From Synechococcus sp. Nb3U1 (GTDB lineage Bacteria > Cyanobacteriota > Cyanobacteriia > Thermostichales > Thermostichaceae), in NCBI RefSeq assembly GCF_021533835.1, contig NZ_JAKFYQ010000001.1:501001-565000 (forward strand): a stretch of 64,000 nucleotides of DNA. Reading direction: 5' to 3'. A program made the position numbers and the translations under genes. Below, one piece after another: positions 54,524 through 59,028 of the stretch. Below the pieces are notes generated by a model, which had not been told where the DNA came from, made no database searches, and saw only the letters and a program-made list of their open reading frames with translations. Every line of letters begins with the position of its first letter. Within the stretch, counting starts at the first letter, position 1.

Positions 54524-56002
54524 TTAACGAGGTTGGATCCGTCGTCCAGGCTGAACTTGATCGGAGGGGTAAAGGATCACCGTTTCGCCAGCTTCTAAGC
54601 CCTCCAATACCTCTGCGGCTGTGGTGCTGCGCTGGCCTAGAGCCACCTGCCGGGCTTGAGCACGTCCCTCTTCCGCCACATAGACACACCACTCTTCCTG
54701 GCAGCGGAACAGGGCGCTGAGGGGAAGTTTCAAAGCCTCCTCGTTTTGCCAGATGATCACTTCGGCTTCAATTCGGTAGCCATCCCCCAAGCGGGCCGGG
54801 GGATCCTCGATATTAGCGATGATGTTGACCCGTTGTTCTTCTACCCCCAAAGCTGACACTTTGGTGAAGGCTGCTGGTTCAACTGTGCGCACGCTGCCCT
54901 GCAATACCTCCGCTCCGCCCCACTGCCGGATCTGAACCGGATCCCCAGGTTGAATCCTGACCGCATCGCTAGAGAGGACATCCATCTCTAGTTCCAACTG
55001 ACCGGGATCCCCAACCTCTACCAACACCGTACCGGCCGGCACAAAGCGGGTGCTCTCCTGATGAACCCGTAAAACCTGCCCTGCACTTGGGGAGGTGAGA
55101 GTGGTGCGCTGGGCAGAATCTGCCAGGCTGGCCAACTCGGCTTCTAGGCTACGAATCTGGGCATCGTACACCTGCAGCAGATAGTCGGGATCCCGTTGTT
55201 GGGCTTGCAGCAGTTGTAACCCTTGTTGGGCAGAAAGGACAGCAGCTTGGGCCTGCTCCACCTCTAGTTGGCGGACGGTGAGGATCTGGCCACGGTTGGT
55301 TACGGCCAGTTCCGCTTCTTCCAGAGCTTGTCGGGGGATGGCCCCTTGACCGAAGAGATCCTCGATCCGTTGCCGTTCCCGTTGAGCCTGCTCCCACGTG
55401 GCTTGAGCTTCGGCTTGTTGGGCAAGGGTCTGCTGGTAACGGGCTTGGGCCGCAGCAATAGAAGCTTCTGCCTGCACCAGTGATGCCGCTTTGGGGCGTT
55501 GGGTGTCCACCCCTCGTTTTTCCGCTTCCAGCCGCTGGATCTGGGCCTGAATAGACTGTACCTGTGAAGCCAAGGGCAGGGGATCGATACGGGCTATGAC
55601 GTCGCCTGAGGAAACGGGATCCCCTACCCGCACCGAGATCCGTTCTAACCGTCCATCCACCGGGGCCGCGATCTCGAAACGTTCTCGCAAACGAGTTTTG
55701 CCTTCTGTCTCGACAGTAACCTGTAACAGCCCCCGCTCCACCACCGCCATATCCACCGGCACAGGGGACGGCCAAAACGCCCAGCCCACCAGAGCCACAA
55801 AACCCACCCCTCCTAAGGCATAGACAGCGGGTTTCCAAGAGCGTTTGCGTTTCGATGACGGTGGGGGAGAGGCTTGTTCCGCTTGAGCTTTTGCCGTTGG
55901 CTGTGGTTCGGCAGCAGCAGGGTGAGGATCCCTGGTGTGAATTGAACCCGTTTGGTTTGAGCGGGTGTGCTCGGTCGTTAGCTGCCTTTCATTGTTTTTC
56001 AT
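54524..56002 (-). CDS. HlyD-type membrane fusion / efflux adaptor protein
   Basis: A protein of about 492 residues. A charged N-terminal cytoplasmic part is followed by one membrane helix (AVYALGGVGFVALVGWAFWP), a barrel-sandwich half-motif (RFEIAAPVDGRLERISVRVG), a long coiled coil (about residues 155-320) and the second lipoyl half (TTLTSPSAGQVLRVHQEST), then a beta-barrel region. This is the build of periplasmic adaptors of RND or ABC exporters. No exporter gene is adjacent. The start is uncertain (ATG 56002 or 56062). Confidence 0.87.
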   Translation of the reverse strand: MKNNERQLTTEHTRSNQTGSIHTRDPHPAAAEPQPTAKAQAEQASPPPSSKRKRSWKPAVYALGGVGFVALVGWAFWPSPVPVDMAVVERGLLQVTVETEGKTRLRERFEIAAPVDGRLERISVRVGDPVSSGDVIARIDPLPLASQVQSIQAQIQRLEAEKRGVDTQRPKAASLVQAEASIAAAQARYQQTLAQQAEAQATWEQAQRERQRIEDLFGQGAIPRQALEEAELAVTNRGQILTVRQLEVEQAQAAVLSAQQGLQLLQAQQRDPDYLLQVYDAQIRSLEAELASLADSAQRTTLTSPSAGQVLRVHQESTRFVPAGTVLVEVGDPGQLELEMDVLSSDAVRIQPGDPVQIRQWGGAEVLQGSVRTVEPAAFTKVSALGVEEQRVNIIANIEDPPARLGDGYRIEAEVIIWQNEEALKLPLSALFRCQEEWCVYVAEEGRAQARQVALGQRSTTAAEVLEGLEAGETVILYPSDQVQPGRRIQPR

Positions 56003-56425
56003 AACCACACGGTGAGTGAAGATGTCCTCGCGTGTTTTCTCCCTTGGCAAATCAGATGGCATCTGGTCTGCGTGGCGCAAAGTAACGATTCGCCATCCCT
56101 ATCCAACCTAGCCCCGCTTCCTCTATCGACAAGATAGCCGGGCCTATTCAGCAACAAAAGGCAATAGTGTCGCACCTTGCCTTGACCAAGATTCATGTAG
56201 GCTTGTCAGGGGTATAGCGACTTGAGCATGAGAGTGTTTGAGACAAAGGATCCCTTTGGAACCTGGTCAGTCGGAGGATGCAGCCTTTTCCAGCGATACA
56301 GACTACAGCCGATCAGGCTAACCCTTTGTCCGACAAGAATTTCTTCTTGACCTTGTGTTGTCCATGAAGCCGGAAAAGGCTGTAACGTCGAGTACCTTGC
56401 TTGATATGAGCTTGCTATAACAATC
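56003..56425. other. Intergenic region with a long inverted repeat
   Basis: About 420 bases without a convincing gene. CAGCCTTTTCC (56281-56291) has an exact inverted copy GGAAAAGGCTG (56372-56382), so 102 bases are bounded by 11-base inverted repeats. The interior has no protein-like frame. This could be an RNA stem or a small mobile-element relic. Confidence 0.5.
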
Positions 56426-56779
56426 TCAATCTCTATAGGCGGTTAGCCGTTGCCAAAGATTTAGAGGGATCCGTTCATGAGGACGCTGCAGCACTTGAAT
56501 CTGGGGCAGATCCTCGGGCAAATAGTGCAGGGCTACCCGCGCTGTCGGATCCATAAGGCTACGGCGCCGCTGGGGGTGTTGCTCTGCTTCCCCCAGAAAC
56601 ACATCCAGCCACTGATCGTGCTCTAGGTAGCGAATCCTCAAAGCAGGTGTCGAGGAACCAGAAGCTTCTTTACGATAGAGCTGAAAACCTCCCTCAGGAC
56701 TCCAACCCAGCCACCACTGGGGAGCCAACTGGCCCAAATGGGTATGCCAAACGCCTGACCCAACCTGTTGCCATGCCAT
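56426..56779 (-). CDS. Hypothetical protein
   Basis: A 117-residue soluble protein starting MAWQQVGSGVWHTHLGQLAP, with several tryptophans and the basic C-terminal ending PLNLWQRLTAYRD. ATG 56779 is preferred to 56818 because GGAG lies 8 bases upstream. I recognise no family. Nearby regions are non-coding on both sides. Confidence 0.55.
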   Translation of the reverse strand: MAWQQVGSGVWHTHLGQLAPQWWLGWSPEGGFQLYRKEASGSSTPALRIRYLEHDQWLDVFLGEAEQHPQRRRSLMDPTARVALHYLPEDLPQIQVLQRPHERIPLNLWQRLTAYRD

Positions 56780-57226
56780 GCCCGCAACTCCACTGCCCCG
56801 GTGCTGCCGGGATCCCAACTGAAAATATTTACCAACTGCCGTTCAGCCAAGTACTTTATCAGACCCACCCAGCTTAATGCAAGTCTTTTGCAAAGAGCCC
56901 ACAAGGGCACACGATAATTTCAAAGGTTTATATTGCAATTTAGTCTCAATAAGATTATGCTGTCCTCAAGTTGAGTGATGGAGTTATGTCCATCAGTCTT
57001 CCTCTCTTGTCTTGGATGCGATAGGGATCCTGCGCTAGCGGAACTAGCCATCCTGCGTTAGGCGGGGATCCCTTTTTCTCCGGAGTCAAGGGGCTAGTTG
57101 TTGAGATCTAATCTTAGTTTAAGGCTTGGGTTAAGGTTCAGTCCCTCGGGGGCGTGCAGGCGATGGGTTCGGCGCTTGAGGCCATACGACGTCTTGGCTA
57201 GGGATCCTGTGGGTGAGAGGAGCAGG
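56780..57226. other. Non-coding stretch leading to the 57.2-57.4 kb unit
   Basis: About 450 bases with no convincing gene. A possible plus-strand promoter lies at 56933-56961. A degenerate copy of part of the dispersed 24-bp repeat is seen on the minus strand near 57029-57045, next to a GGGATCCC octamer at about 57066. Its GC content falls towards the right end. Confidence 0.4.
56933..56961 (+). promoter_or_regulatory. Possible promoter of an orphan transcript
   Basis: TTGCAA (56933-56938) and TATGCT (56956-56961) are spaced by 17 bases. Each box has two mismatches to consensus. It would start transcription near 56968, with the next plus-strand terminator at 57404-57440. Confidence 0.35.
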
Positions 57227-57364
57227 ATGAAAATCATAATGTTTTTTGATTTTTGCAGGGCGATTCTTTTGCCTAGCTTTTGTTATTTTTATACTCTATT
57301 TTTGTGCTCAAAAACGAGATGGAAAGATAAGATCAGAGGATCGAAAAGATGGAACTTCAGGTAA
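57227..57364 (+). CDS. Possible small membrane peptide ahead of a strong terminator
   Basis: A 45-residue frame from ATG 57227 begins MKIIMFFDFCRAILLPSFCY, with a hydrophobic segment and then a basic tail (KTRWKDKIRGSKRWNFR). GAGGAGCAGG lies just before the ATG. The DNA here is much more AT-rich than its neighbours. The stop codon is 40 bases before the terminator. It may be a real small protein, or the locus may be a non-coding RNA and the frame accidental. Confidence 0.35.
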   Translation: MKIIMFFDFCRAILLPSFCYFYTLFLCSKTRWKDKIRGSKRWNFR

Positions 57365-57403
57365 AATCGGAGCAGCGTTGACGCTAACCGCGACGAAGAG
57401 ATC

Positions 57404-57440
57404 GGAGGGAGGAAACCCTAACGTCCTCTCTCCTTTTTTT
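57404..57440 (+). terminator. Strong Rho-independent terminator without an assigned gene
   Basis: GGAGGGAGGA (57404-57413) pairs with TCCTCTCTCC (57424-57433) as a ten-base-pair stem with one G-U pair and a ten-base loop, followed at once by seven T residues (57434-57440). It acts on plus-strand transcripts, yet no established plus-strand gene lies within the previous 2.9 kb. Confidence 0.85.
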
Positions 57441-57478
57441 ATGGGATCTCTGCATGAGTCTGTATTCATGAATCTGTA

Positions 57479-58234
57479 TCAAAAGGTTGCGCCTCGATCT
57501 TGTAACCACTGGATGGCCATTCTGTGCTGGCGCTTTTGGGCATAGGCTAGGGGGGTATGTCCATCCTCATTGCGCGGGTTCAATTCAGCTCCGTTTTCGA
57601 TCAACAGTTCCAACATTTGCACATGGCCTTCCCAAGCAGCCCAGTGCATCGGTGTGGCCCCAAAGCGATTGCGCGCATTCACATTGGCCCCATACAAGAG
57701 CAAAAAGCGAGCAATGCCCAAATGCCCCTGGGTAGCGGCTTCGTGTAAAGGGGTTCGACCCGTTTCATCTGCAGCATCCACCGGAGATCCCTTCGCTAAC
57801 AGCCGCGCCAGAATGCTTTTGCGACCGGTTGCCGCAGACCAGTGTAAAAGAGCATGGCTATTGGCACCTTTTTCGATCAATAGACCGATCACCTCTGCTT
57901 GATCGGTTAGAGCAGCCCGATGCAAAGGGGTATATCCATAGCGATCCGGGAGATGGATATCGCTCCCTGCCCACAACAGGCGATCCACAAGGGTGACTCG
58001 GCCCTTAGCTGCAGCCAAATGGAGGGGAGTTGCTCCCGTAGAATCCAAAGCATTGGGAGAAGCGCCATAAGCCAATAGCAAATCCAACAGTTCTAAGTTA
58101 CCGAGAACAACCGCTTTATGGAGGAGGGTAAATCCTTGGGGATCGGGAGCATTGATATCCTCCCCTTGTTGTAAATGGGCTAACAGTTGTTGTGGATTTT
58201 GATCTTCAAGGGCTTGGTGAAGGGCTTCACTCAT
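57479..58234 (-). CDS. Ankyrin-repeat protein
   Basis: A 251-residue soluble protein of about seven ankyrin repeats, such as DPQGFTLLHKAVVLGNLELL and DSTGATPLHLAAAKGRVTLV. One repeat near residues 125-150 lacks its D-x-x-G-x-T-P front half (EKGANSHALLHWSAATGRKS), consistent with an in-frame deletion of about 15 residues. Ankyrin proteins mediate binding; the partner is unknown. ATG 58234 is taken as the start. Confidence 0.85.
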   Translation of the reverse strand: MSEALHQALEDQNPQQLLAHLQQGEDINAPDPQGFTLLHKAVVLGNLELLDLLLAYGASPNALDSTGATPLHLAAAKGRVTLVDRLLWAGSDIHLPDRYGYTPLHRAALTDQAEVIGLLIEKGANSHALLHWSAATGRKSILARLLAKGSPVDAADETGRTPLHEAATQGHLGIARFLLLYGANVNARNRFGATPMHWAAWEGHVQMLELLIENGAELNPRNEDGHTPLAYAQKRQHRMAIQWLQDRGATF

Positions 58235-58379
58235 ACACACTCATACAAAAGAGTTGGGCAGAAAAACAGGGATCCTTGTTGGGGTAGAATGCTAAGCTCC
58301 GGGCAGCTTGGGCAAAGTCTAACACTGGATCTCTGTCGGTCGTCATACTGACAAACAAGGTGCTAGAGAGGGACTAACG

Positions 58380-59028
58380 ATGGGGGAGTGGAGCTTGGTG
58401 ATCGGCAATAAAAACTATTCTTCCTGGAGTTTGCGGGCTTGGTTACCCCTCAAGCAGGTGGGACAACCTTTTGAAGAAATTCGGATCCCTCTTGATACCC
58501 CCGAGTTTGCTGAGCAAATTGCCCTCTATTCCCCCACAGGAAGGGTTCCCGTCTTGCGACATAGCTCCCTAATTATTTGGGATTCATTGGCGATTGCAGA
58601 ATATCTAGCGGAGACTTTCCCCACAGCTTACCTTTGGCCCACAGACCCAGGGGCACGGGCTATTGCACGGGGCAGTCAGTGCCGAAATGCATGCGGGGTT
58701 TGCTGACTTACGGCAGGCGTTACCGATGGATTGCCGAGCCCGGCGCAGCGATGTGCGGATCCCGGCGGCAGCCCAACGGGATATCACCCGTATTCTTCAG
58801 ATTTGGCAGGAGTGTCGGCGGCAGTATGGTCAGGGGGGCGATTACTTATTCGGTTCCTTTACCCTTGCCGATGCTATGTATGCGCCAGTGGTCAGCCGGT
58901 TCCAAACCTACGGGGTCAAGTTGGAGGGCATTGCGGCGGCTTATGCAGAGGCAGTGTTAGGGATCCCTGCTGTTCAGGAGTGGATGGTAGCGGCAGCAGC
59001 AGAACCGGAGACACTCGTGACGGTGTAG
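58380..59028 (+). pseudogene. Glutathione S-transferase family gene with a frameshift
   Basis: Two frames together make one GST. The first begins MGEWSLVIGNKNYSSWSLRA, has the thioredoxin-fold segment TGRVPVL and AEYLAETFPTAYLWPTDPGA, and leaves its homology at about 58672. The second, in the +1 frame, carries AVSAEMHAGFADLRQALPM and GSFTLADAMYAPVVSRF to the stop at 59026-59028. Removing one G from the GGGG run at 58669-58672 joins them exactly as I-A-R-A-V-S-A-E. The break may be a true mutation or a base-call error. Intact, it would be about 215 residues. Confidence 0.82.

Follow-up and report, generated by a model that had tools for sequence, protein, structure and literature searches.

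Two candidate small RNA genes, one with a predicted Fur box in its promoter, ahead of an isolated terminator in a hot-spring-type cyanobacterium

A strong intrinsic terminator that follows no recognisable gene raises the question of what is transcribed ahead of it. One such terminator lies on the plus strand at 57404-57440 of the window analysed here, a 64-kb stretch of DNA (G000:C1:501001-565000) from a hot-spring-type cyanobacterium. The original prediction joined it to a possible promoter at 56933-56961 and proposed a single plus-strand transcription unit, a candidate non-coding RNA or small-protein gene that was possibly acquired, after about 2.9 kb without an established plus-strand gene. 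The gap is real: upstream, clear plus-strand genes reach only as far as 54415. The neighbouring genes listed in Table 1 are on the minus strand; the short uncharacterised frame among them has no Pfam or NCBIfam match and shows protein-level similarity to a frame in a related genome (G001). Our analysis of the locus points to a different layout. With a probability of about 0.72, the plus strand carries two independent small RNA genes: E1, a trans-acting small RNA (sRNA) with a Fur box, and E2, a separate RNA that would end at the 57404-57440 terminator.

The terminator was found exactly where it had been predicted. Its stem (57404-57433, GGAGGGAGGA/UCCUCUCUCC) comprises 10 base pairs, one of them G-U, which enclose a 10-nt loop and are followed by seven T. 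In a 56-nt context the structure folds with -19.3 kcal/mol (z -1.93). A standard terminator scan missed it because its loop exceeds the limit of 8 used there. When all plus-strand stem-loops of the 64-kb window with at least 7 pairs followed by at least five T were ranked by stem length and T-run, this terminator came first, in agreement with its earlier description as one of the best in the window.

We then searched 39 related genomes with the sequence 56900-57480. Each of the other five genomes of this genus gave matches, always as two separate pieces. The E1 piece (56930-57082) displays 83-94% identity in these five relatives. The E2 terminator region, on whose conservation in close relatives the original prediction was staked, displays 88-92% identity in four of them and 75% in the fifth. 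In an alignment of the six genomes, identity per 20-nt bin is 0.77-0.95 across E1 and 0.78-0.96 across E2, and mostly 0.2-0.5 across the spacer, of which about 280 bp do not align. The order and strand of the two islands are constant in all six genomes. A single plus-strand unit from 56933 to 57440 is contradicted by these two islands and by a second terminator at about 57023-57077. Since this second terminator ends a separate unit, the 56933 promoter and the 57440 terminator belong to different conserved units. The proposal of a non-coding RNA is supported in kind, as two separate RNAs and not as one unit of about 500 nt. One transcript of about 470 nt, initiated at the 56933 promoter and ended by the 57440 terminator, would agree with the conservation and co-linearity of both ends in six genomes. 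However, E1 has a conserved terminator of its own, the 280 nt between the islands are not conserved, E2 is preceded by its own conserved TAnAAT, and E1 occurs alone, with no E2, as the second copy in two relatives (G003 and G004) and in a genome of another genus (G007), which makes a joint transcript highly unlikely.

Table 1. Features of the E1-E2 locus and its neighbours (window positions)
Feature	Position	Strand	Remarks
HlyD-type protein gene	54524-56080	minus	neighbour
Short uncharacterised frame	56426-56818	minus	neighbour
E1 -35 TTGCAA	56933-56938	plus	conserved except in one copy of nine, which has TTGAAA; spacer always 17 nt
Predicted FurA-type box CAATTTAGTCTCAATAAGA	56936-56954	plus	across -35 and spacer; TCTCAATA invariant in all copies
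E1 -10 TATGCT	56956-56961	plus	identical in seven copies; one has TATACT, and the divergent G007 homolog TACTAT
E1 candidate small RNA gene	~56968-57080	plus	~110 nt; ends predicted from -10 and T-run
E1 5' hairpin TGATGGA-GTTATG-TCCATCA	56976-56995	plus	unbroken in 9 sequences; both-side changes in two pairs
E1 core GTCTTCCTCTCTTGTCTTGG	56996-57015	plus	presumed pairing region; nearly invariant
E1 intrinsic terminator AGGGATCC...GGGATCCCTTTTT	57023-57077	plus	helix 94% paired; both-side changes in 6 pairs
Spacer E1-E2	57082-57361	plus	holds most of the 45-residue frame 57227-57364
Putative E2 -10 TAAAAT	57362-57367	plus	all six genomes have TAAAAT or TAGAAT; no clear -35
E2 candidate small RNA gene	~57374-57440	plus	~67 nt; predicted ends
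E2 5' element GCGTTGACGCTAACCGCGACGAAGAG	57375-57400	plus	six genomes differ at a single position (G/A)
E2 intrinsic terminator	57404-57440	plus	originally reported feature
Ankyrin protein gene	57479-58240	minus	convergent to E1/E2

No Rfam family was matched at gathering score in the whole window, and in 56050-57520 nothing credible appeared at E<=5, neither E1 nor E2 being matched. E1 and E2 appear as ordinary-looking but unannotated small RNAs.

The promoter that had been proposed at 56933-56961 is present as TTGCAA-17-TATGCT, with a layout shared by all nine E1 copies. It fell below the threshold of a generic sigma-70 scan, though it is conserved. The predicted E1 RNA starts a few bases past TATGCT and ends at 57073-57080. 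Within it, the pyrimidine-rich core CUUCCUCUCUUG has a mean unpaired probability of 0.76 (RNA positions 29-46). Covariance modelling on aligned relatives, a check suggested with the original prediction, supports the E1 structure. The E1 model recognizes all six genomes of the genus with E-values of 1e-24 to 1e-33, with one copy each in four genomes and two each in G003 and G004. Across the nine aligned sequences, 96.5% of alignment cells are paired, and changes on both sides are seen in eight pairs, a count that leans partly on one divergent sequence and is somewhat generous because the alignment was fitted to the structure. None of 500 shuffles reached eight pairs with both-side changes, and structures slid along the alignment gave 0-3.

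Next to this anatomy, the E1 promoter contains a predicted FurA-type box. A repressor bound there would block transcription, because the box lies between the -35 and -10 elements. For Anabaena, FurA has the consensus site AAATAAATTCTCAATAAAT, and one of its boxes ahead of isiB reads CAAAATAGTCTCAATAAAT (PMC4005646). Counted by hand against these Anabaena sequences, the E1 box agrees with the consensus in 13 of 19 positions and with the isiB site in 15 of 19. We also built a FurA matrix from 23 listed Anabaena sites, with which the E1 box ranks fourth among 127,964 positions of the window, and 32 of 799,280 sampled genome positions score at least as high. In several relatives, the score of the box under this matrix is clearly lower. 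A Fur-like pattern is approximately fourfold commoner in the G000 genome than its reversed control (22 vs 5). In silico, E1 has a box that overlaps its promoter, the arrangement that marks a Fur-regulated sRNA.

Boxes of this kind were also detected beside genes with a connection to iron stress. At G000:C1:784000-786500, two Fur-type boxes occupy the divergent region between a gene of the CP43/IsiA family and an imelysin gene, and the sequence GAGATTTAATCTCAATAGCTATGCT found there has the same type of box and the same TATGCT -10 as E1. The CP43/IsiA-like protein scores above the TIGR03041 cutoff and below the psbC cutoff, and its best solved relative is a CP43 homolog in the IsiA-containing entry 9zjt. 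This region is likely an iron-stress locus. Because of the Fur-type box in its promoter and the similar boxes beside the IsiA-like and imelysin genes, E1 likely belongs to the Fur regulon and would be made under iron shortage.

As far as sequence can tell, the best reading of E1 is that of an iron-stress sRNA, repressed by Fur, that would act in trans like IsaR1 or RyhB. When iron is present, Fur would cover the E1 promoter. When iron is short, Fur would leave and an RNA of about 110 nt would be made, consisting of a protective 5' hairpin, the open pyrimidine-rich core and the 3' terminator. The core may then pair with purine-rich ribosome-binding sites and reduce translation of certain mRNAs, in the manner of IsaR1 of Synechocystis and RyhB of E. 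coli. RyhB and PrrF of Pseudomonas are Fur-repressed iron-sparing sRNAs that silence mRNAs, as proposed for E1, and no sequence relation to them is expected. PrrF is duplicated, as E1 is in two genomes.

We also looked for predicted mRNA targets. A 12-mer complementary to the E1 core showed no enrichment against its reversed control. Shuffled cores paired at least as well as the E1 core with the start regions of 371 sampled genes of G000 and 327 of G004. In G003 only, the start region of a gene that we read by eye as ndhI, for an iron-sulfur subunit of NDH, could form 17 consecutive pairs with the core. This pairing may be taken as a lead only, because similar pairing energies also occur among the sampled genes and the match comes from one genome. 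Separately, GGCAAGAGAGGAACAGC is conserved upstream of a metE-like gene in three genomes and is one base off the complement of the E1 core.

Turning to E2, an almost invariant stretch, GCGTTRACGCTAACCGCGACGAAGAG, lies between the TA(A/G)AAT at 57362 and the terminator. The nearest GGAAAC in E2, of interest for a comparison with the conserved motif of Yfr2, is not shared by the relatives. The E2 model (R2) has a single match per genome in the six genomes of the genus, with E-values of 1e-15 to 1e-20, and gave no other convincing match among 242 genomes of the class; E2 is confined to the genus. Further matches in seven genomes of other families (G069, G150, G108, G032, G046, G129 and G029) have no conserved 5' part and are likely chance hairpins or generic terminators. 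Because a conserved 5' part precedes its terminator, we favor E2 as a candidate short RNA; it might be a 3' element only. In the latter case E2 would be nothing but a terminator or 3'-end element, for example one that protects the convergent ankyrin gene, and E1 would still be an sRNA. Such a role would fit the position of E2, immediately beyond where the minus-strand ankyrin gene ends (57479), and its strong plus-strand terminator, but a terminator by itself requires neither the 26 nearly invariant nucleotides ahead of its stem nor the upstream TAnAAT, and we therefore regard this alternative as rather unlikely.

The AT-rich stretch that had been noted ahead of the terminator exists; it coincides with sequence before the E2 start that is not conserved. 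Its 45-residue frame at 57227-57364 is indeed open and has a hydrophobic middle, as a small membrane protein would require, but in all five relatives it is broken by stops or has no similar counterpart. A small-protein gene is not supported because the frame is not conserved in any of the five relatives, and we give the membrane protein almost no weight.

The proximity of the two candidate RNAs raises the question whether they act on each other. In some Prochlorococcus, Yfr10 lies upstream of Yfr2 and the two RNAs interact (PMC6778093), a layout that the order of E1 before E2 resembles. By this precedent, the purine-rich E2 could be an antagonist that soaks up the E1 core; the two are neighbors on the same strand in six genomes, and GAAGAGAUCGGAGGGAGGAA of E2 can pair with the core at about -20 kcal/mol. 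However, this pairing is not significant, being no better than with dinucleotide-shuffled E2 (p 0.08-0.25 in five genomes), and part of the pairing site is inside the terminator stem of E2 itself. An antagonist pair is thus very improbable, and E1 and E2 are better read as two independent RNAs.

Outside the genus, the covariance model with more permissive filters identified a divergent E1 copy (E 0.0014) in G007, which belongs to another genus of the same family. This homolog is intergenic and has a promoter and box of the form TTGCAA-ATAGATCTCAATAGAGA-TACTAT. Its hairpin stem differs (CTTGAT/ATCAAG), with the arms changed compensatorily; the core is kept as TCTTCCTCTTGTCTTG and is followed by a terminator, and the predicted RNA is about 85 nt long. 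Patterns combining Fur box and core yielded chance-level matches in 242 and 390 cyanobacteria, except for G007. Their silence in other genomes says little, because neither pattern could match the E1 of the window: in the first, the gap limit was too small by one base, and the second specified the G007 core. A match to the E1 model in G179, of another family, is without the conserved 5' parts and likely a chance hairpin or generic terminator, and a match in G170 lies inside an apparent transporter reading frame.

Within the genus, both islands are found in all six genomes, alongside the same convergent ankyrin gene where checked. The possible acquisition of the locus is contradicted, at least as a recent event, by this conservation and synteny and by the occurrence of an E1 homolog in G007. 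In G000 and G001, the 56426-56818 frame, E1, E2 and the ankyrin gene all stand together. In G003 and G004, one E1 copy remains with E2 and the ankyrin gene, and the second copies each have their own box; the second copy in G004 adjoins a homolog of the 56426-56818 frame, as does, by sequence, its G003 counterpart. These arrangements fit a splitting of the locus by a rearrangement in which E1 was duplicated and neither copy was lost; the elements are together in G000 and G001 and separated, with a second E1, in G003 and G004. As a separate observation, the 17-mer GCCAGTTATTCTCAATT occurs at about 18 sites in G004 and is not listed for the other genomes; it is probably part of a mobile element.

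We also compared E1 with known cyanobacterial RNAs. Iron-stress sRNA regulators of the IsaR1 kind are transcribed from Fur-controlled promoters (PMC12090762; PMC7247011). IsaR1 (iron-stress-activated RNA 1) of Synechocystis PCC 6803 is raised on iron starvation, and E1 has the promoter expected of such an RNA. The mRNAs that IsaR1 represses encode iron and photosynthesis proteins. The length of IsaR1 is 68 nt (PMC6202907), whereas about 110 nt are predicted for E1 and about 85 nt for the G007 homolog. In the Synechocystis salina genome, models R1 and R3 together with the core and Fur-box patterns gave no convincing E1 homolog or IsaR1 candidate. Membership of E1 in IsaR1, which we compared by description, cannot be claimed because the lengths differ and no homolog was found in the Synechocystis genome. 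Yfr1 has two stem-loops flanking an unpaired pyrimidine-rich motif (PMC2190773), an architecture that E1 resembles. The ultraconserved ACUCCUCACAC of Yfr1 is absent from both strands of the window, and E1 is not Yfr1.

If E1 proves to be related to IsaR1, iron-sparing RNA control would be extended to an early-branching group. It is conceivable, though unlikely, that early-branching hot-spring cyanobacteria possess a Fur-controlled E1 that is unrelated to IsaR1 in sequence and stands in tandem with a tuning RNA, E2; if so, iron-sparing sRNAs would have arisen more than once within cyanobacteria. The two candidates are unannotated, testable sRNA genes in a thermophilic cyanobacterial lineage that is a model of natural microbial mats, and E1 would be tied to iron starvation through its promoter.

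Two further features of the window were noted. GGATCC occurs 188 times in the whole window against approximately 18 expected, and GGGATCCC 77 times; GGATCC is an iterated palindrome of the lineage and also makes up the stem of the E1 terminator. At 58380-59028, a Glutathione S-transferase is encoded in two overlapping frames, with the N-terminal domain at 58380-58706 and the C-terminal domain at 58663-59028, and this split is a frameshift or a sequencing error.
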